This document shows positions 12,869-21,669 of a stretch of 26,138 bases of DNA, one piece after another. How positions within the stretch are numbered: the stretch's first letter is position 1; every line of letters begins with the position of its first letter. This DNA comes from a virus. The stretch spans positions 1-26,138 of IMG/VR virus record IMGVR_UViG_3300017782_000188, one strand, 5' to 3'. The position numbers and the translations under genes were made by a program. The notes beneath the pieces are model-generated. The model was not told where the DNA came from. It searched no databases and saw only the letters and a program-made list of their open reading frames with translations.

Positions 12869-14179
12869 CTAAAATTGAAAAATGGTAGTGTCACTATCAG
12901 CTAGTGCATTGCCATTTGCCAATGTAAATGTTTTTGTTCCTGTAAACGTTGTTCGAGTATCAATCGAAGCGTTAAACTCAAAGTCTGTATTCTTTGTATC
13001 TAGTCCTGCTGAAGCAGTAAAAAAAGGTATTACTCTTGTAGGTTGTCCCCCAGCTGCACCAGTACCACTAGCCAAAATTGCTAATTCGTTATCACCTGAT
13101 TTTGTGCCTGCAGGTAATGTTGCACCTGTTGCTGATATTGCAATTGCACCTGTGCCATCAGAACTTATTGTTGCACCTGCAAGGTCAATTGTATCACCAG
13201 CAAGAAATAAATCATTAAATCTTTTTGTTGAACTACCTAAATTTCTTAGATTAGTTACATCTGGTACAATGTCTTGGTCAATTCGACTTAAATCTACTGG
13301 TGCCCCAAAAGTACCATCTTGTAAATCTAAACCGTCACCAGCATTTGAACCACTTGAATCTGTGCCATCTAAAATTACTCTATCACCAGCATTTGAACCA
13401 CTTGAATCTGTAGCATTTAAAACTAAATCTTCAGTTTCTAAAACTGTACCTACAAACGTATTAGTTGCTGAGTCAAATTGTAAAACTCTTTTATCTACTA
13501 GAGCAGTATCAGTATCAATATCAGTTAATCCAGCCAATGATGAAGATGCTGTTCCAAAAACTATTTTACCTGTTGATGCTTGATACTTTAATACCTTGCC
13601 ATCACCAATAGAACTTATATCTACATCATCTAACTTTGTTAAATTAACTTCACCGCCACCACCTATTGTGGACATTTGTTTAGTTACAATATCTTTAAAT
13701 TGAACAAACTCTTTTTTCATATCATCTAAAGAGGTTATCTTATCTAAAGATTTTAATTTTTCTTTTTCTAGTTCATTTGCAACTTTCATTTCAGAAAGTT
13801 TTTTAGTTGTTTGTTTAATTATATCATCTGTATTGTCATCTTCAGAAATTTCAATTTCAATAACTGGTTTTTCTTCTTTTATTTCTTTCTTAGGTTCTAG
13901 TAATAATTCTTTTTTCTTTTTTGGTTTTGTTTTCTTTTTCTCTTTCTTTAGAGAAGAAAACAATTCTTCTAAATCAGATATTTTCTTTTCTGCCTTAGCA
14001 ACTTTTTCTTGTGATTGTTTTTTTGCATCAGCAATTACAGAGAAAAAGTCTTCTAATTTCTCTTCTGGTTGTTCTGCGACCTTAACAACCTTCTTTATAT
14101 CTTCTTTGATTTTAGAATTTAACTTTTTTTCTTGTAAGAGTGAAATTTGTTTTTCTATATCTGGATCAATATCTATCAT
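12869..14179 (-). CDS. Fibre-like virion protein with Lys/Glu coiled-coil N-terminus (436 aa)
   Basis: Residues 1 to about 170 are extremely rich in Lys and Glu and read as long coiled-coil helices, with a KKEKKKTKPKKKKELL stretch. A GGGGE linker near residue 175 leads into a beta-rich fibre-like half (LDDVDISSIGDGKVLKYQAST, then SLAGLTDIDTD and a LGSSTKRFNDLFLAGDTIDL block). This suggests a helical trimerising or anchoring domain fused to a fibre shaft; that is inference. A 16-residue unit TDSSGSNAGDxxxLxDG is duplicated, giving two 29-base exact DNA repeats (13335-13363 and 13383-13411). It starts two bases after the stop of the 110-residue gene. Confidence 0.82.
   Translation of the reverse strand: MIDIDPDIEKQISLLQEKKLNSKIKEDIKKVVKVAEQPEEKLEDFFSVIADAKKQSQEKVAKAEKKISDLEELFSSLKKEKKKTKPKKKKELLLEPKKEIKEEKPVIEIEISEDDNTDDIIKQTTKKLSEMKVANELEKEKLKSLDKITSLDDMKKEFVQFKDIVTKQMSTIGGGGEVNLTKLDDVDISSIGDGKVLKYQASTGKIVFGTASSSLAGLTDIDTDTALVDKRVLQFDSATNTFVGTVLETEDLVLNATDSSGSNAGDRVILDGTDSSGSNAGDGLDLQDGTFGAPVDLSRIDQDIVPDVTNLRNLGSSTKRFNDLFLAGDTIDLAGATISSDGTGAIAISATGATLPAGTKSGDNELAILASGTGAAGGQPTRVIPFFTASAGLDTKNTDFEFNASIDTRTTFTGTKTFTLANGNALADSDTTIFQF
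13335..13411 (-). repeat. Tandem 48-base duplication in the coiled-coil fibre gene
   Basis: The 29-base stretch at 13335-13363 recurs exactly at 13383-13411, a period of 48 bases or 16 codons, encoding two copies of ATDSSGSNAGD/GTDSSGSNAGD. The near-perfect DNA identity suggests a recent in-frame duplication in the fibre half of the protein. Confidence 0.9.
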
Positions 14180-14181
14180 AA

Positions 14182-14514
14182 TTATCTACTTACGCTTGGT
14201 GTTACCGTTGCACGTCCCTCTATTCTTCGAGTGATAAGTCCTGAACTATCAGTTGTTGTCAAATCCCAAACATATCTACCTTCTGAAAGAGCACCTGTTA
14301 CAGTATCAGTTAGTGCAATAGAGCAAGTGCCGTCAGTTGCACTTACCTTTGCTGTTGTAAACGAGGTTGATGAACTAGCAAGATGTGTTTTTCTCAATGT
14401 AGCAGTTATCGTTTCGCTTGATAAATCGACTACTGTTCCTGTCGAATCTTTTACTGTTAATGTTTCAGTATAATCGCAATCTTGGTCGATAGTAATGTTC
14501 TGTATTGTTGCCAT
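14182..14514 (-). CDS. Small beta-sandwich adaptor-like virion protein (110 aa)
   Basis: A 110-residue protein with the layout of widespread phage N-terminal adaptor domains (BppU/fibre-base type): ITIDQDCDYTETLTVKDSTG, VVDLSSETITATLRKTH, then CSIALTDTVTGALSEGRYVWDLTTTDSSG and a closing RRIEGRATVTPSVSR. The GRYVWDL...G..TRR.EG..TVTP pattern is the recognisable part. Here it stands alone rather than fused to a fibre, so it may bridge baseplate and fibre. It has an exact late promoter at 14542-14549 and an AGGAA ribosome-binding site 7 bases before the ATG. Confidence 0.8.
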   Translation of the reverse strand: MATIQNITIDQDCDYTETLTVKDSTGTVVDLSSETITATLRKTHLASSSTSFTTAKVSATDGTCSIALTDTVTGALSEGRYVWDLTTTDSSGLITRRIEGRATVTPSVSR

Positions 14515-14541: not shown

Positions 14542-14549
14542 TATTTATA
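14542..14549 (-). promoter_or_regulatory. T4-type late promoter before the 110-residue adaptor gene
   Basis: An exact TATAAATA on the coding strand, 28 bases before the ATG. It restarts late transcription after the hairpin cluster that ends the radical SAM unit. Confidence 0.82.
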
Positions 14550-14579
14550 ATTCAAGAAAAGAGAAAGCTAAAACAATTT

Positions 14580-14645
14580 AACGGGATTTGCCGTCTCATA
14601 GCCGCCCGCTAGGCGGCGTTAGGGGCTGCCTGCATATGATAGTAC
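14580..14645 (-). terminator. GC-rich hairpin cluster, putative terminator or structured RNA
   Basis: This stretch is conspicuously GC-rich (37 of 60 bases in 14581-14640) inside an AT-rich genome. On the coding strand three short stem-loops can be drawn in series: GGGG/CCCC (outermost), a perfect GCCGCC-TAGCG-GGCGGC hairpin (14601-14617), and GACGG-CAAATC-CCGTT. There is no clean U-tract after the strong hairpin, so a classic intrinsic terminator is only partly supported. It lies right after the radical SAM stop and before a late promoter, so it probably separates two transcription units. It may instead be a structured RNA or a scar from a horizontal insertion. Confidence 0.45.
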
Positions 14646-14654
14646 CCCCTAATT

Positions 14655-16082
14655 TTAGACATTTTTAACCTGTATATCTGATTTTCTTCGAACTATTGTA
14701 ATTGGTTGGGGTTTTAACTCACCTATTTTTCTTGCTTTTCGTGTATTCTTAGGTTTACCGTTTACTGCCCAAAATATATCTTTACGGTCTTCTCTAAAAT
14801 CGCCTTCAATATGTATTGGAAAATAACCTGAGATACTATCTATAACATGGCAAAGCATAATCACGTTATCACTATATGCATTATTACAAGATGCTTCCCA
14901 AAGTTCACCTGTTAAAAATAAACAAGAACCTTTACATAGATGTATTACAGGACATTTAGGACAGTCTGGTCGGTCACTCCAATGTGTGCCTGTTTTTATT
15001 TTTACTTTCTCTAAATCATTTACATGACCAATATGATGTGAAATGCCTGCAGGATTAGTTGATACAGGACTTACATTTTGACAAGTCAAAACATTTCCAT
15101 TTAAATCTACAGCCATATTTTTTCTTTCACTCATTCCGCATTTTTGAGGTAATGTTTCTACACGTCTTCCTATCTGTAGACTTTTAATAAAATCTCTGGC
15201 CTTTTTGTCAACTAAACCAAATCTTGACGCTGTGTTTTCTCTTAATTCAGCAGCTGCTTTAATTCTGTACTCAACATCTTTTTCACCATCTAATAAAGAA
15301 GTATCAAGACCTCCTTCATCATACGCATCAATAAAACCACCTTCACCAAGTTCTAAATATTGTAAATATTCTTTACCAATTTCTTTTTCTACAAAGTTTT
15401 CAAACCATTTTTGAACAGTTGCACGACTTATATTGTCGGCATGTATCATTGAATTAAAAGACATTCTACCTTTAGGTGCTAATCTTTTAAATAAATCTAT
15501 AATACCTACTTTTGATTTAGGGTCACTCAAAGGGTCAGGACCACGAATATGTTGACCTACAGCATCATGTGACATTCCTATAGAAAACCCATACTCTTCT
15601 AAAAAATCATTCTTTTTTTTATCTAATAAACTACCATTAGTAACCATACTCATTGTACAATCAGGATATTTTTTCTTTAATGCAATAGCTAATGGTTTCA
15701 AAGTTTTCCAATAAACTAAAGGTTCTCCTCCCCAAAATTCAAATCTTGGTTTGCCGTCACCATGATACCAGTTGTCCATGTTACTAACAAAGTCATCTAC
15801 TTGTTTGTAATTAGTTGCTTTTGCTCTAGGAACAAATCTTTGACTACAGTATGAACAAGAATAGTTACAAGATAAACCTAATTGTATTTTAATTTTTTCT
15901 AGTTCACCTTTTCCTTTTTCCATTTCTGCAACTTTAACGTTATTTGGGTCTTGTACTTCTGCACCTCTTATCACTGGCAGTCCTGTATCTTTCCAATGTA
16001 ACGTACTTACATCAGTATCATATACCATTTGTCTTTTATGTTGTGTCTTAAAGTTATGACAAGTTAATGTAAATTTAGGCAT
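14655..16082 (-). CDS. Radical SAM/SPASM enzyme, peptide- or protein-modifying type
   Basis: 475 residues from the ATG at 16080-16082, which shares one base with the preceding stop (TAATG) and has AAGGG upstream. An earlier in-frame ATG at 16118 would add 12 residues. The radical SAM motif is C72-x3-C76-x2-C79, with GGEP at 118-121. The C-terminal SPASM signature is complete: C315-x13-G-x4-C334, then C374-x2-C377-x5-C383-x3-C387, and C399/C411, enough for two auxiliary [4Fe-4S] clusters. Such enzymes modify peptides or proteins (sulfatase formylglycine maturation, thioether or other crosslinks). There is no sulfatase here. It is the last gene of the oxygenase cassette and sits among fibre genes, so a virion protein is a plausible substrate (inference). 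Confidence 0.93.
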   Translation of the reverse strand: MPKFTLTCHNFKTQHKRQMVYDTDVSTLHWKDTGLPVIRGAEVQDPNNVKVAEMEKGKGELEKIKIQLGLSCNYSCSYCSQRFVPRAKATNYKQVDDFVSNMDNWYHGDGKPRFEFWGGEPLVYWKTLKPLAIALKKKYPDCTMSMVTNGSLLDKKKNDFLEEYGFSIGMSHDAVGQHIRGPDPLSDPKSKVGIIDLFKRLAPKGRMSFNSMIHADNISRATVQKWFENFVEKEIGKEYLQYLELGEGGFIDAYDEGGLDTSLLDGEKDVEYRIKAAAELRENTASRFGLVDKKARDFIKSLQIGRRVETLPQKCGMSERKNMAVDLNGNVLTCQNVSPVSTNPAGISHHIGHVNDLEKVKIKTGTHWSDRPDCPKCPVIHLCKGSCLFLTGELWEASCNNAYSDNVIMLCHVIDSISGYFPIHIEGDFREDRKDIFWAVNGKPKNTRKARKIGELKPQPITIVRRKSDIQVKNV

Positions 16083-16621
16083 TACTTTTGTACCCTTGGT
16101 TTGTAAATATATTCCCATTTAGATGCAGGAGTTAAATGTAACCCTACACTTATTCTGAGTTTATTTTTTTCACTAGGTGTCTCAGGCATATGAAACAGAT
16201 TAGAATTAAAAAGAACAGCCCTATTTGGTACATATGGCACTCTATGAATTTTGTCATCTTGATGTATTTGTAATGCACCTGCCCAATCATTTTTCCATTC
16301 TTTAGAACCAAACCAGATAAGACTAAGGTCTTTTGGTGTGCCGTCTTGATGTAAATGTGACTCGTTCAATGCCGTTGCACCATTAATGCCTACTCGTTGT
16401 ACAGCATAAGGTGTTTTTATTTGTTGATGGTCTAGTGAATTACAAGTTGTAAATCTGTTATACAATTTTTCTCCTATTGCCTTTTCTACATCAGGATTAA
16501 AAATACGCCAACCTTGATTGCCTGTTATGTTACTTAAATTTGGAAACTGCCAATAACCCTTTTTAAAAAATTCGTAACAGTAATTCCAATCTTCATCTTT
16601 TAAAAAATTATCTATAATCAT
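16082..16621 (-). CDS. 2OG/Fe(II)-dependent oxygenase-type protein 3
   Basis: 179 residues. The metal motif is canonical: H91-x-D93 (SHLHQDG), distal H144 (SNLFHMPE) and R156 (KLRISVGLHL), the usual 2-oxoglutarate-binding Arg 12 residues after the distal His. The strand VPYVPNRAVLFNSNLFH before it is typical of the double-stranded beta-helix (prolyl-hydroxylase-like) fold. It would hydroxylate a protein or small-molecule substrate with O2 and 2-oxoglutarate. It overlaps its upstream neighbour by 4 bases (ATGA) and touches the radical SAM gene. It is not closely similar to the other two oxygenases, so it was probably recruited separately. Confidence 0.88.
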   Translation of the reverse strand: MIIDNFLKDEDWNYCYEFFKKGYWQFPNLSNITGNQGWRIFNPDVEKAIGEKLYNRFTTCNSLDHQQIKTPYAVQRVGINGATALNESHLHQDGTPKDLSLIWFGSKEWKNDWAGALQIHQDDKIHRVPYVPNRAVLFNSNLFHMPETPSEKNKLRISVGLHLTPASKWEYIYKPRVQK

Positions 16622-17241
16622 ATTGTAATAAAAGAGTCTGCTTGTTGTCTGTCCTTAACTTTGGCGTTTATAACAATAAATATTCTGTCTCTTTTTCCTT
16701 TATACATTTCAGATTCATGAAATAAATATGATGGATGTATGGTTAACATTTTTGGTTTAGGTTGTAATTGAATTAACATATCATGATTTAGACCTCTTGA
16801 GCGTTGTGCTATTGGGTCAATTAATAAAAATCTACCATCATCATTATCACAGGTTGCGTCATTAGTTTCTACGTTATCTAAATCTACATAGTAAACTCCA
16901 GTGTAATCAATGCCTCTATGAGTATGAGGTCGTGCCCGATTACCTTTGACAAATCTTCTAGGAAATGCAGTTACTTGTATTTCTAATTCGTCCGGGTCTA
17001 TAAATTTTTCTGCATGTAACATCTCATACAGTTTTACTTTAATCTTTTCTCTAAATAATTTTATTATTGGCGTGTCTAAAGCAAATAAATTTGGTACTTT
17101 AATCTCTTTGTTAAAAATTTCAGGAGTACCATTAAATTTATCAATCTCTGGTTTAACTGCTTCTAATAATTGAAGATTATCTTCACTGGTCAACAGGTCT
17201 TCTTCGACCATAATGTTATTTACCCATGCTTGATATATCAT
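16618..17241 (-). CDS. 2OG/Fe(II) oxygenase-like protein 2 (paralogue of protein 1)
   Basis: 207 residues. The core resembles the putative 2OG-Fe(II) oxygenase family seen widely in marine phages: RPHTHRGIDYTGVYYVDLD (His106, His108), GRFLLIDPIAQRSRG, then KMLTIHPSYLFHESEMYKG with distal His175, followed by KRDRIFIVI with Arg184/186. There is no HxD, so the exact metal triad cannot be read by eye. It aligns along its whole length with the next upstream protein, including the N-terminal YQAWVNNIMVEED versus LQAFWATNVIMEG. The ATG at 17239-17241 overlaps the upstream stop by 4 bases. A protein-hydroxylating role is likely for the family; the substrate is unknown. Confidence 0.85.
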   Translation of the reverse strand: MIYQAWVNNIMVEEDLLTSEDNLQLLEAVKPEIDKFNGTPEIFNKEIKVPNLFALDTPIIKLFREKIKVKLYEMLHAEKFIDPDELEIQVTAFPRRFVKGNRARPHTHRGIDYTGVYYVDLDNVETNDATCDNDDGRFLLIDPIAQRSRGLNHDMLIQLQPKPKMLTIHPSYLFHESEMYKGKRDRIFIVINAKVKDRQQADSFITI

Positions 17242-17885
17242 AATTTTGTGTAAAACGGTGCTTGTATAGGTTCTGCTACTCTACAAACAATAGTAAAGAA
17301 AGACCTAGTTTTTTTACCTAAATAAGGTTCACTAAAATGATACAAATATGCAGGGTGCATAACAAGCATTTTAGGATAAACTACTACATCTACGTTTTGT
17401 GTGTGATTCATTGCTCTTGACCTTTGTGTTATAGGGTCAGTAAAAATAAATCTACCTTTAGGTTGTTTAAAATTATCACCTAGACCTTCCATAGCATCTA
17501 AATCTGCATAATATACAGCCACATAATCACAACCTCTGTGATTGTGTGTTTTACTTCTGTCACCATGTTCGTGTTCTCGATATGCAGCCACTGCTTCAAT
17601 GTCATATTTTTCAGGTTCAATAAAACCATCTGCTTTCATTAATAATCTTACACGAGATTTTATAAGAGCTGCAAGTTTATCTATAGCAGGATGGTCAACA
17701 TTGAATAAATTATAACCTTGACGATTAGGGTCTTGAATATCTGGAACATGTTTAAATACTTTTGAGTGTTCTTTACCAATTCTAATTAACTCTTGATTAT
17801 CTTCATCGGTTATGTCAACGCCTTCCATGATAACGTTTGTTGCCCAGAAAGCCTGTAGTTTTATATTTTGATTATCTAATTTCAA
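17238..17885 (-). CDS. 2OG/Fe(II) oxygenase-like protein 1, TTG start
   Basis: 215 residues. The core is KTHNHRGCDYVAVYYADLD (His114, His116), KGRFIFTDPITQRSRAMNH, then KMLVMHPAYLYHFSEPYLG with distal His183 and KKTRSFFTI with Arg194. It is a clear tandem paralogue of protein 2. No ATG exists before residue 20, yet homology to protein 2 begins near residue 10, so the TTG at 17883-17885 is the likely start; a GGGA lies about 9 bases upstream and the start is 14 bases inside the previous gene. An ATG at 17828 would remove conserved residues. The function is inferred from the family only. Confidence 0.83.
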   Translation of the reverse strand: MKLDNQNIKLQAFWATNVIMEGVDITDEDNQELIRIGKEHSKVFKHVPDIQDPNRQGYNLFNVDHPAIDKLAALIKSRVRLLMKADGFIEPEKYDIEAVAAYREHEHGDRSKTHNHRGCDYVAVYYADLDAMEGLGDNFKQPKGRFIFTDPITQRSRAMNHTQNVDVVVYPKMLVMHPAYLYHFSEPYLGKKTRSFFTIVCRVAEPIQAPFYTKL

Positions 17886-18636
17886 TTTCTGTTTTCCCTG
17901 TAAAATGTTTAAAACCTGCTTTAACTTTGCCTCTACCTTTAAATAAAATCTTAGTACTTGCTTTACCTACATTGTTTGTATAAATTCTATTTTCACGCAA
18001 CACACCTGTTGTTGTTTCTAAAAATATTTCTACATTTTCTTTATAAGCATTTGTACCATCAGCTTCTAATAATTGTGCTGTAATATTATCTTCATTATCC
18101 ATACTTAATTGAATCGTTGGCATCATAGGAATAATATCATCTAATCCGTTACCATTAATAGTTTCTATCATTTTATCACCTTGTTCAACACCATTAATTA
18201 TAATTTTAGAAGCAGGTAGAAATACAATCCAATCGTCAATGGGTGAGTCTGCCCAAGGTCTAGCAAAAGAGAAACCTTGTTGTATGCCTAACATTGATGC
18301 TACAACATGTCCTGTGGTTGATTTAGAATCAGTAGTGTGTCTGAAGAAATCATACACTCTAACTTTTTCATGTAATCTAAAACCTACAGCGATAATTGCA
18401 TGTGGTTGATTTATCTGTTTATTAGAAGAAGTATCTCTGTTTAAGTCAGCTTTAGATAAGTAACCTTGATAGTGGTCTCTTTGGTCCATACGCATTTCAC
18501 GTCTGTATGAAACAAGAGCGTCTTTACTACCGGTTAGTTTTAAGTCATATTCCAGACCTTCTGGATTATGATTGATGATTAATTCATTTGGGGATTGTTG
18601 CTCATTTACATGAGGGCATTTTTTGTATCCAATCAT
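17872..18636 (-). CDS. Ig-like virion protein B, first gene of the modification cassette
   Basis: 254 residues from the ATG at 18634-18636; an AAGGAG (18645-18650) sits 8 bases upstream, which rules against the in-frame GTG overlapping that site. The N-terminal half contains HAIIAVGFRLHEKVRVYDFFRHT and a DDWIVFLP strand; the C-terminal part (about residues 165-254) looks like a bacterial group-1 Ig-like domain: PTIQLSMDNEDNITAQLLE, VEIFLETTTGVLRENRIYT, VGKASTKILF, GKVKAGFKHFTGKTEIEI. It is a paralogue of the protein at 18692-19378 in both halves. It shares a transcription unit with the oxygenases, making it a candidate substrate or partner. Confidence 0.82.
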   Translation of the reverse strand: MIGYKKCPHVNEQQSPNELIINHNPEGLEYDLKLTGSKDALVSYRREMRMDQRDHYQGYLSKADLNRDTSSNKQINQPHAIIAVGFRLHEKVRVYDFFRHTTDSKSTTGHVVASMLGIQQGFSFARPWADSPIDDWIVFLPASKIIINGVEQGDKMIETINGNGLDDIIPMMPTIQLSMDNEDNITAQLLEADGTNAYKENVEIFLETTTGVLRENRIYTNNVGKASTKILFKGRGKVKAGFKHFTGKTEIEIR

Positions 18637-18658
18637 TAAATACACTCCTTTTCATAAT

Positions 18659-18687
18659 ATTATAACATAATGTTAATATGATGTAAA
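18659..18687 (-). promoter_or_regulatory. Sigma70-like promoter (extended -10) driving the oxygenase/radical SAM unit
   Basis: On the coding strand TTTACA (18682-18687) is followed by exactly 17 bases and then TATAAT (18659-18664), preceded by TGT, giving an extended -10. It lies in the 46-base gap before the Ig-like protein B gene. The start would fall near 18652, just ahead of the AAGGAG site. No TATAAATA octamer is present in this gap. Confidence 0.65.
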
Positions 18688-18691
18688 GCTA

Positions 18692-19378
18692 TTATATAGT
18701 TATTTCTGCTTTTCCTGAGAAATATTTGAAACCTGCTTTGACTTTACCTGCGGCAGCACCAACTACTGTAGTTGTAGCGACACCACTTGAATTTGTTTTG
18801 ACTCTATTTTTATTTAGATATCCGCCTGTAGTTTCAAAGTAAATCTCTACGTCTTCTTTAACGGGGTCAATTGTAGCTGAAATATCTGTTCCGTCTTTAG
18901 ACATTGAAATACTTGGTAGTAAGTCGCCGGCAGCCGCACCAATCGACCTGTTATTATCTACATTAAATGTAGCAAGAGCACTACCTTCATTTGTAGCAAT
19001 ACTTGAGTTTACTACTAATGTCCAATCATCTGTTGAACTATCAACATAAGGTATAAACACAAACACTATAGGTTTAATGTTCATTAAATTTCTAAGTGAC
19101 CCTACACTTGACTTATTGTGTTGTGTATGTTTAAAAAAGTTTGTAGCTTTTAATGTACCAGCTGCACCATAATTGTCATCATGAACTGACAACACAGAAA
19201 TAGCATGATGTGTAGTAATAGTTTCTTTTGATTTATGGTCTGCTAAAATAAGGTCTTTATCAAACGCATATGTATTTGAACCTATTGTAAGTTCAAATTC
19301 ATCACTACCTTTATCTTTTAGTGTTACTGTTTCGCCGTTATATGCCGGTTCAGTTTGTGTATTTTTTCTTAAATTCAT
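18692..19378 (-). CDS. Ig-like virion protein A
   Basis: 228 residues. The N-terminal half has the conserved stretch HAISVLSVHDDNYGAAGTLK, KATNFFKHTQHNKSSVGSLR and IVFVFIPYVDSSTDDWTLVV; the C-terminal part is an Ig-like beta sandwich (LLPSISMSKDGTDISATI, VEIYFETTGGYLNKNRVKTN, GVATTTVVGAAAGKVKAGFK). The last ten residues or so (FKYFSGKAEITI) match those of Ig-like protein B (FKHFTGKTEIEI). The start is ATG 19376-19378 with AAAGGA upstream. It is likely exposed on the virion, where Ig-like domains commonly decorate phage tails or heads and can bind cell-surface carbohydrate; that role is family knowledge, not shown here. Confidence 0.82.
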   Translation of the reverse strand: MNLRKNTQTEPAYNGETVTLKDKGSDEFELTIGSNTYAFDKDLILADHKSKETITTHHAISVLSVHDDNYGAAGTLKATNFFKHTQHNKSSVGSLRNLMNIKPIVFVFIPYVDSSTDDWTLVVNSSIATNEGSALATFNVDNNRSIGAAAGDLLPSISMSKDGTDISATIDPVKEDVEIYFETTGGYLNKNRVKTNSSGVATTTVVGAAAGKVKAGFKYFSGKAEITI

Positions 19379-19389
19379 TGTTTATCCTT

Positions 19390-21639
19390 TTAACAGTTAC
19401 AGTTACATGCACAGTCGTGGTTGTGACCAGATGAAGCAAAACCGGAAACGGCATTGAATGTTCCGTCGCCTCTTAAAAATGTAGTACTATTTCTTGTTCC
19501 ACTACCAGCAATTTTAGCCAATGTAACTTGTGTGTCCCCTATGTGGGCAGTATCAATACTACCGTCTGTATAATGTTCACTATTGATTGCATTATCAGCA
19601 ATTTTAGCACCTGTGATTGCGTCTGCCTGAATGTCTGCTGTTGATACTGTATTGTCTGGTAATACAGGCACTTGACTAAATGTAACTACACCGTCTGAAG
19701 CAATTGTTATAGAATCTGCATCTGAAGCAACACCTATTGTACCGCCATCTTTAATTACTAAATCGTCTGCAATAGTCAAGAGACCAGCAGAACTTAATGT
19801 CATTTTAGATGATGCGGCTTCACTTGCACCAGTCTTGAACACTAATTTAGTTGCATTGTTAGAAGAACTAAAGTCTCCTTCTGAGACTGCCTCAATACCA
19901 GCAGCAACAAGTATTGCATCTGTGCCTGTTGCCTCATCTGGTGCCTGGAAATCTATTTTACCAATAACATCATTAGCAGCGATATCTGTTTCGCCTGTTT
20001 GTAATGTTAATGAAATTGGTTTATCGTCTGCCGTAGCAGTATGTTTTAATATTAATCCTGTGTCAGCAGTATGAATTAATCTGACTTCTTGGTCGTTACC
20101 AAACTGAATTGTTCCGCCATCTGCCAAGAATAAATCTGACCACTCTAGTGAAGCAGAACCTAATGCAGCTCCGTCAGCACTTGCAGGATTACTTGAGCCT
20201 GCAGCCGCAAAGGATAATACACCAGAACCATTTGTTACTAATGCCTCTCCACTACTTCCGTCTGAAGATGGTAGAGCAAATGATGTGCCTCCAGATGTAA
20301 GTGTAAGTTTTGAACCATCTGATTCAATTTTTTCGTTTGCATCTGTAAAGTGTAAACCTACGTTTGTAGGAATAATAACATCTGTAGCCGCTGTTAATTT
20401 AATATTATTACCAGCGATTGTTAAATCTGTACCATCTCCTTCAATTTTTTCTGCTGAATCACCGAACACCATTCCTACATTGTTAGGTAAGTGTACGTCA
20501 CTTGTAGCAGTTAAGTTGATTTTGCCACCAGATGTTACTGTTAAATCTGTGTTGTCGCCTTCTATTTTCTCGCCAGTACCGAAAGTAACTCCTACGTTTG
20601 CAGGAACTACAACGTCACTTGTAGCAGTTAAGTTGATTTTAGCGCCAGATGTTATTGTTAAGTCTGTATTATCGCCTTCAATCTTTTCACCAGTACCAAA
20701 TGTTACGCCTACGTTTGCAGGAACTACAACATCTGCTGTTGCAGTAAGATTAATATTATTACCAGCGATTGTTAAATCTGTTCCGTCGCCTTCAATTTTC
20801 TCAGCATCATTACCGAATGTTAATCCAACATTTGCAGGTATGTTAATATCTGTTACTGCTGTTAGATTAAGGTCGGCGCCAGCATTGATAGTTAAATCTG
20901 TTCCGTCTGAAGATATTTTCTCTCCACCTTTATCAAAGAAGTAAACTGCCCTATCATCAGCAATTCTCATTACTTCGTTACCATCATACTGATTAAATAC
21001 TAAGTCGTCTGAGTCGACACCGAGTTGAATGACTTGAGCACCTGAAGTGCCGTCCATGTCTAAAGTAAGTTGTAAAGTACCAGCGTCTTTGAATTCTACG
21101 TTACCACCAGCAGCATCTATAACGATATCGTTTGATGAGTCTAGTGTAATATCTGTGCCATCATTTGTAATGGAATCAAGTGCAATACTTCCAATATTTG
21201 TAATATCAGCATCACTCATATCGAAACTACCTGTTACATCTAAGTTTCCACCAATACTTGCATTACCTGTAACTGTTAAGTTATCAGCGATTGTTGTTTC
21301 ACTTGTAGTATGTCCGATTGTTACAACGATACCAGAGGTTTCGGTTGCAACTTTTAAAGCGCCTGTTTTGTTTGCAATGTATGAATTAGTGCCATCGTGA
21401 TAGATTTCTAAATCATCACCAGTACCAAATAGTCCTTTTGCACTATCAGCAAAAGATTGACTACTTCCTGTTAATACACTAAATGTATTTGCTGTGAATT
21501 GAAAGTCATCAGCGCCAGCAATTCTGACATCAATCTGGTCATCCGAATCCGCGGTAAGGGATGTATCCTCATCTATATCTAAAGTTAATTCTTGACCGCC
21601 AACTTTAGTTAGTATGTTTGTTAAACCTATATATGCCAT
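19390..21639 (-). CDS. Repeat-containing tail fibre-like protein with Cys-rich C-terminus (749 aa)
   Basis: A long fibre-type protein. The N-terminal part (1-240) has DDLEIYHDGTNSYI and NLTVTGNASIGGNLDVTGS elements. Residues 241-436 form five tandem repeats of 38-40 residues (KIEGDGTDLTI...NLTATxDVxxPxNVGxxFG), with a sixth partial copy to about 450. A fibre-tip region follows (LGSASLEWSDLFLADGGTIQF; DITIASDG; LRGDGTFNAVSGF). The extreme C-terminus is GHNHDCACNCNC, with H739/H741 and C743, C745, C747 and C749, the only cysteines in the protein. HxH motifs bind iron in the T4 long-fibre tip. It is probably trimeric and receptor- or baseplate-associated (inference). A late promoter is at 21662-21669. 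Confidence 0.88.
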   Translation of the reverse strand: MAYIGLTNILTKVGGQELTLDIDEDTSLTADSDDQIDVRIAGADDFQFTANTFSVLTGSSQSFADSAKGLFGTGDDLEIYHDGTNSYIANKTGALKVATETSGIVVTIGHTTSETTIADNLTVTGNASIGGNLDVTGSFDMSDADITNIGSIALDSITNDGTDITLDSSNDIVIDAAGGNVEFKDAGTLQLTLDMDGTSGAQVIQLGVDSDDLVFNQYDGNEVMRIADDRAVYFFDKGGEKISSDGTDLTINAGADLNLTAVTDINIPANVGLTFGNDAEKIEGDGTDLTIAGNNINLTATADVVVPANVGVTFGTGEKIEGDNTDLTITSGAKINLTATSDVVVPANVGVTFGTGEKIEGDNTDLTVTSGGKINLTATSDVHLPNNVGMVFGDSAEKIEGDGTDLTIAGNNIKLTAATDVIIPTNVGLHFTDANEKIESDGSKLTLTSGGTSFALPSSDGSSGEALVTNGSGVLSFAAAGSSNPASADGAALGSASLEWSDLFLADGGTIQFGNDQEVRLIHTADTGLILKHTATADDKPISLTLQTGETDIAANDVIGKIDFQAPDEATGTDAILVAAGIEAVSEGDFSSSNNATKLVFKTGASEAASSKMTLSSAGLLTIADDLVIKDGGTIGVASDADSITIASDGVVTFSQVPVLPDNTVSTADIQADAITGAKIADNAINSEHYTDGSIDTAHIGDTQVTLAKIAGSGTRNSTTFLRGDGTFNAVSGFASSGHNHDCACNCNC
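20332..20919 (-). repeat. Five tandem ~117-base repeats in the 749-residue fibre
   Basis: Units correspond to residues 241-280, 281-318, 319-357, 358-397 and 398-436. Copies three and four are the most alike (both KIEGDNTDLT...GxKINLTATSDV). The regular 38-40 residue period with PxNVGxxFG at each turn suggests a beta-solenoid or triple-stranded shaft. Near-identical copies allow length variation by recombination. Confidence 0.92.
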
Positions 21640-21661: not shown

Positions 21662-21669
21662 TATTTATA
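21662..21669 (-). promoter_or_regulatory. T4-type late promoter before the 749-residue fibre gene
   Basis: An exact TATAAATA on the coding strand, 22 bases upstream of the ATG, directly after the stop of the 119-residue gene. A GAGGAAT ribosome-binding site follows. Confidence 0.82.

Follow-up and report, generated by a model that had tools for sequence, protein, structure and literature searches.

The window, which is the whole 26,138-bp record of an uncultivated virus, carries a predicted host-type promoter ahead of five cassette genes, and this reading is well supported by the sequence of the site, its position and the retention of the extended -10 element in three lineages. As read from the sequence, the promoter sits within a tail-end exchange module and does not mark the 5' end of a moron. 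The promoter alone is ordinary for this phage group, and the module that surrounds it is more interesting. The virus has the gene order of the T4-like pelagimyophages (fibres, gp13-gp20), and its terminase and the one of Pelagibacter phage HTVC008M share 69.5% identity.

The predicted promoter site and the genes around it

The site lies in the 55-bp gap between the genes of two Ig-like proteins, Ig1 and Ig2, 22 nt 5' of the Ig2 start codon (ATG at 18636), and was resolved into the following elements.

18659..18687, minus strand: host-type (sigma-70, extended -10) promoter TTTACA -17- TGtTATAAT, with a predicted transcription start at about 18652
18687-18682, minus strand: -35 element TTTACA
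18667-18666, minus strand: TG of the extended -10
18664-18659, minus strand: -10 element TATAAT
18645..18650, minus strand: AAGGAG ribosome-binding site of Ig2

The -35 element of the window is a 5/6 match at the 17-nt spacing, and the spacer (TCATATTAACATTATGT on the minus strand) ends in TATGT. The ATG at 18636 is conserved in relatives, and GTG 18645, the start given in the ORF list, is probably incorrect. An earlier note had described TTTACA, a 17-base spacer and TATAAT with TG before AAGGAG, and this arrangement was borne out on the minus strand at 18687..18659; its seven exact T4 late octamers elsewhere in the window were likewise found by count.

The genes concerned are listed below in the order in which they are read.

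19390..21639, minus strand: fibre-type structural protein ending in ...HNHDCACNCNC, the likely substrate
18692..19378, minus strand: Ig1, Ig-like, upstream of the promoter and in the same conserved block (Big_1, 21.3 bits, below cut-off)
17872..18636, minus strand: Ig2, 254 aa, with a putative Ig-like domain at its C-terminus; the first gene behind the promoter
17238..17885, minus strand: 2OG-1, 2OG-Fe(II) oxygenase (Pfam PF13759, 31.7 bits; cut-off 27)
16618..17241, minus strand: 2OG-2, 2OG-Fe(II) oxygenase (Pfam PF13759, 43.6 bits)
16082..16621, minus strand: 2OG-3, probable 2OG-Fe(II) oxygenase (PF13640, 23.8 bits, below cut-off; phrog_274)
14655..16082, minus strand: radical SAM/SPASM enzyme with CNYSCSYC and SPASM (PF04055, 42.4 bits; TIGR04085, 28.4 bits, cut-off 27)

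From Ig2 to the radical SAM/SPASM enzyme, the genes downstream of the promoter overlap or abut. The structure of Ig2 was predicted with low confidence (pLDDT 55), and from this weak model, which resembles the intimin D0/D00 Ig-like domains, it can be suggested that the C-terminal domain is Ig-like. Searches of cultured phages returned no match for Ig2 and no DNA similarity to the region.

Promoters of related phages

In HTVC008M, the motif TTGACT-N12-TGTGA-TATAAT recurs before the genes for gp55, DNA polymerase, primase, exonuclease and endonuclease V. A weight matrix built from eight HTVC008M sites gave 30 further matches; seven of these precede a start, where 1.4 would be expected. Of the 21 late octamers of this phage, 18 are found no more than 100 bp ahead of a start. 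A variant of the motif with TAGGAT also occurs in HTVC008M (L174-L176), and a perfect copy lies antisense in the adenylate cyclase gene at 13039. Host-type sites were also present inside the late region of HTVC008M, at 76441 (endonuclease V), 80353 (gp55) and 16538 (hub catalyst). For cyanophages and RB49, early promoters that overlap with late ones are considered a substitute for the MotA-dependent middle promoters (PMC2984593), and the annotation of the related methylophage Melnitz contains 31 early, 15 late and no middle promoters (PMC9004378). Taken together, these late-region sites and the two reports imply that a host-type promoter before non-structural genes of the late region is ordinary in the group. 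In an earlier pelagimyophage survey, attempts to predict middle and late promoters were reported as unsuccessful (PMC7029224).

Late octamers and the Ig1-Ig2 gap in sister phages

The seven exact TATAAATA octamers of the window are all on the minus (coding) strand.

22099, 22057, 21669, 14549, 11562, 6459 and 2302, minus strand: exact TATAAATA octamers
21662..21669, minus strand: T4-type late octamer TATAAATA preceding the fibre gene; L002 has none at that position
14542..14549, minus strand: T4-type late octamer ahead of the gene at 14182-14514, kept in cassette-less relatives

Among the gaps of at least 29 bp in the window, the promoter gap was the only one without TATAAATA or its one-mismatch form TATAAACA; the best match to the late octamer there has two mismatches.

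A gap of comparable kind between Ig1 and Ig2 was found in only three independent sequences, namely the window (55 bp), L002/L003 (62 bp) and L004-L006 (54 bp). The last 31 bp are shared (TGnTATARTATTATGRAAAGGARTGTATTWA), with identities of 30/31 between the window and L002 and 27/31 between the window and L004, and a scan of IMG/VR for this block matched only the records of these same three groups. The extended -10 is kept as TGaTATAAT in L002/L003 and as TGtTATAGT in L004-L006. Within the block, the 14 bp upstream of the ribosome-binding region (TGnTATARTATTAT) were identical at 13 of 14 positions between the window and L004, against fourfold-degenerate sites that are about 67% identical between the two; the resulting P value of 0.029 is weak because only three independent sequences carry the extended -10.

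The upstream half of the gap behaved differently from this block. TTTACA was present in the window only; L004 has a weak TTTTCA at 16 nt, and L002 has no -35. The genes flanking the gap are about 95% identical between the window and L002/L003, and the fourfold sites about 93% identical between the window and L002. Against this last baseline, the 5' part of the gap agreed at just 11 of 24 ungapped positions (P ~1e-9, a value inflated by an indel). In a gapped alignment, the whole gap was 73% identical, and the other alignable gaps were 96-100% identical. The 5' part also diverges between the window and L004. No promoter was found at the Ig1-Ig2 junction of L007/L008, L009, L014 and L022/L024, in which the gap is missing or 19 bp long. 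The check proposed in the earlier note, whether the promoter is kept in relatives with the cassette, therefore had a mixed outcome: the -10 was found in three of about seven cassette lineages, and the -35 was confined to one.

Upstream of the fibre gene, where the window has the octamer at 21669, the same gap in L002 is about 10 bp long and has no octamer; the fibre gene of L198 also has just about 10 bp of gap upstream. The position of the late octamer in the operon thus differs between the window and L002, which are sisters about 95% identical. These positions indicate that the late promoters of the operon moved between the sisters while the extended -10 stayed.

The main rival to the host-type promoter reading draws on this mobility. 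It takes the gap as a late-control site and the enzymes as late genes, so that the TATAAT-like sequence would be a remnant or decoy and the promoter class would drift between sisters. Where the window has its -35, the gap of L002/L003 carries the exact late octamer TATAAATAGTTA (L002 7947-7954), which matches the extended late motif found elsewhere in the window, and the shift of the octamers within the operon fits this view as well. However, no octamer with at most one mismatch is present in the gap of the window, and L002, for all its late octamer, retains TGATATAAT, which is closer to the -10 block of HTVC008M than the site of the window. In addition, L004 is an HTVC023P-type podophage in which octamers occur at background level, and yet it retains the -10 block. 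With this evidence, we regard late control of the gap as unlikely.

Chance expectation of the site

Between 6500 and 26138, the site at 18687..18659 was the best sigma-70-type match and the sole 11/12 match with TG. The total number of sigma-70-like sites in this range was 74, compared with 84 +/- 9.2 in shuffles. The count is uninformative because it does not exceed the shuffles, and it is the position alone that makes the site notable. The same-strand gaps of the window sum to 520 bp. In first-order Markov sequence trained on these gaps, the probability of at least one 11/12 site with TGn across the 520 bp was 0.0008, and it was 0.014 when TG was not required. On the HTVC008M-promoter weight matrix, the site scored 15.1, for which 0.25 matches are expected per 26 kb on both strands. 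The stability of an RNA hairpin in the promoter gap was not above that of shuffles (z -0.68), and a regulatory-RNA hairpin at this place was rejected on that value.

A chance match in AT-rich DNA would explain the site differently: the conserved part would be the ribosome-binding site with its spacing, and transcription would come by read-through from 21669. The conserved block does continue directly into AAGGAG and ATG, AT-rich gaps favour TATAAT, and the site count has no excess. A similar matrix score occurs in antisense coding DNA at 2410, and L007, L014 and L022 have no Ig1-Ig2 gap at all. On the other hand, conservation reaches 14 nt past the ribosome-binding region, to TGnTATARTATTAT, and the probability in gap sequence is about 0.0008. 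Short Ig1-Ig2 junctions suffice elsewhere, yet the gap has been kept in two phage types. We therefore consider chance an improbable explanation, somewhat more so than late control.

Extent of the exchanged unit

Three close relatives (L198-L200) share the backbone genes and lack the cassette, with other genes and another fibre end in its place. Their fibre homologue matches residues 1-449 of the fibre-type protein (78% identity for L198), after which it differs and has no Cys. Since the match stops at residue 449, the start of the exchanged unit falls within the fibre gene, near nt 20292. It comprises the C-terminal part of the fibre from about aa 450, Ig1, Ig2, the three 2OG oxygenases and the radical SAM/SPASM enzyme, and the promoter is located internally, about 1.6 kb from the start of the unit. 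The order Cys-tailed fibre, Ig1, Ig2, 2OG-1, 2OG-2, 2OG-3 and radical SAM enzyme was observed in several phage backgrounds. The same cassette occurs in a T4-like myophage (the window) and in the HTVC023P-type podophage L004, with Ig2 85% identical, a cross-family transfer of the module.

At the far end of the cassette, the earlier note had placed a hairpin cluster as the cassette's own terminator.

14563..14677, minus strand: structured repeat element (the hairpin cluster), about 115 bp

This role was ruled out, as the element is inverted at the same locus in the cassette-less L198-L200, occurs in unrelated contexts and does not follow the cassette in L004. L018 has it in nearly unchanged form, and L180 has two opposite copies. 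Nearly identical copies (L177-L186) were seen in contigs without homology to the genes of the window. In Rfam, no family matched the element above the gathering score, and a match below it was at chance level, so a known RNA was rejected too. The scan for intrinsic terminators gave only a weak hairpin at 14595.

Morons typically have host-type promoters. The earlier note had read the cassette as a moron, placed between structural genes and equipped with a promoter and a terminator of its own, and the cassette is indeed missing from L198-L200 at the same place; but such a moron is very improbable, since the exchanged unit takes in Ig1 and the C-terminal end of the fibre, both upstream of the promoter, the hairpin is not linked to the cassette, and relatives carry the cassette without a promoter at that place. 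With the promoter internal, the -35 not conserved and a late octamer in the gap of L002, moron anatomy is not supported.

Cysteine-tailed fibres and radical SAM enzymes

An upstream ORF whose last 10 residues include three or more Cys, typically as CNCNC, is present in 62 of the 67 distinct radical SAM loci that have sufficient sequence upstream; in the same loci, 2.5% of ORFs have such an end. Fibre-type proteins with (NC)n Cys tails lie upstream of a radical SAM/SPASM enzyme across many phage and prophage types (the window and L002-L117). In place of the one long fibre, three consecutive short ORFs with Cys tails precede Ig1 in L009 (6395-7204) and L014 (3431-4214). From this linkage of fibre and enzyme, we infer that the enzymes would act on the Cys tail of the fibre, and the system resembles a RiPP-like pathway that modifies the ends of virion fibres.

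The radical SAM enzyme of Achromobacter phage JWF (L267 4646-8167) is 46% identical and has no Cys-tailed neighbour, so that JWF cannot stand in as a cultured test case and its substrate must differ. Against the cut-offs of specific NCBIfam maturases, the radical SAM enzyme scored 50-56 bits at best where 180-400 are required, and nothing on a CNCNC tail with radical SAM enzymes was found in the open-licence literature.

Proposed role of the promoter

Weighing these readings, we think that the gap probably holds a real promoter of the extended -10 type that serves unmodified host RNA polymerase (sigma-70) and would give the enzymes a supply independent of the late class. Host RNA polymerase would start a transcript near 18652 that carries Ig2, the three 2OG oxygenases and the radical SAM/SPASM enzyme. 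The late promoters upstream of the fibre gene could also serve these genes, the octamer at 21669 by read-through. The internal promoter would then be an extra supply, independent of gp55-driven late transcription, and the enzymes could be present before, or in excess of, the Cys-tailed fibre protein that is their presumed substrate. Expression of the cassette earlier than the virion proteins is thus possible. Promoter activity, its timing and the modification of the fibre tail by the enzymes are all deduced here from the DNA letters.

Should the promoter be active, the virion-modifying enzymes would be made apart from the late programme, and the maturase could be ready first. The comparison also yields a recognisable non-late promoter motif, as well as late octamers, for HTVC008M, and defines the start and the end of the exchanged tail-modification unit. 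A broader picture is conceivable, though doubtful: marine phages of different families might exchange a RiPP-like tail-end module, which in pelagiphages would travel with a portable host-type extended -10 promoter making the enzymes before, or independently of, the fibre. The upstream half of the promoter would be retuned in each recipient, with a -35 in one and a late octamer in the sister.

Comparison with known systems

The early promoters of T4-like marine phages (HTVC008M, and the sigma-70 motifs of S-PM2 and Syn9, PMC2984593) share TGnTATAAT, the 17-nt spacing and a non-structural gene next to the site. Unlike the HTVC008M type, the window has TTTACA instead of TTGACW at -35, the site is inside a tail-modification block, and the -35 is not conserved in sisters. 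The overlapping "middle mode" promoters of RB49, S-PM2 and Syn9 (PMC2984593) resemble L002, where a late octamer and an extended -10 share one 62-bp gap, whereas the gap of the window has the host-type element only.

With a moron of the lambdoid type, the cassette shares accessory genes within the structural region and a promoter-like site. It differs in that the promoter is internal to the unit, the hairpin is not the cassette's, and the gene of the presumed substrate lies inside the unit.

The part of the pelagimyophage genome that separates the fibres from the neck genes is called the "host recognition cluster", and the radical SAM gene cassettes there differ between two related phages (PMC7029224). 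These cassettes resemble the one in the window in their genome region and in differing between related phages; in the passages of PMC7029224 that deal with them, a substrate, a promoter and a boundary are not among the features described.

The RiPP radical SAM/SPASM maturases (e.g. PapB) and the anaerobic sulfatase maturase are alike in the CxxxCxxC core, the SPASM domain and the adjacent Cys-rich substrate tail. In contrast to the RiPP maturases, the presumed substrate in the window is the C-terminus of a virion fibre, and the block adds three 2OG oxygenases and Ig-like proteins.
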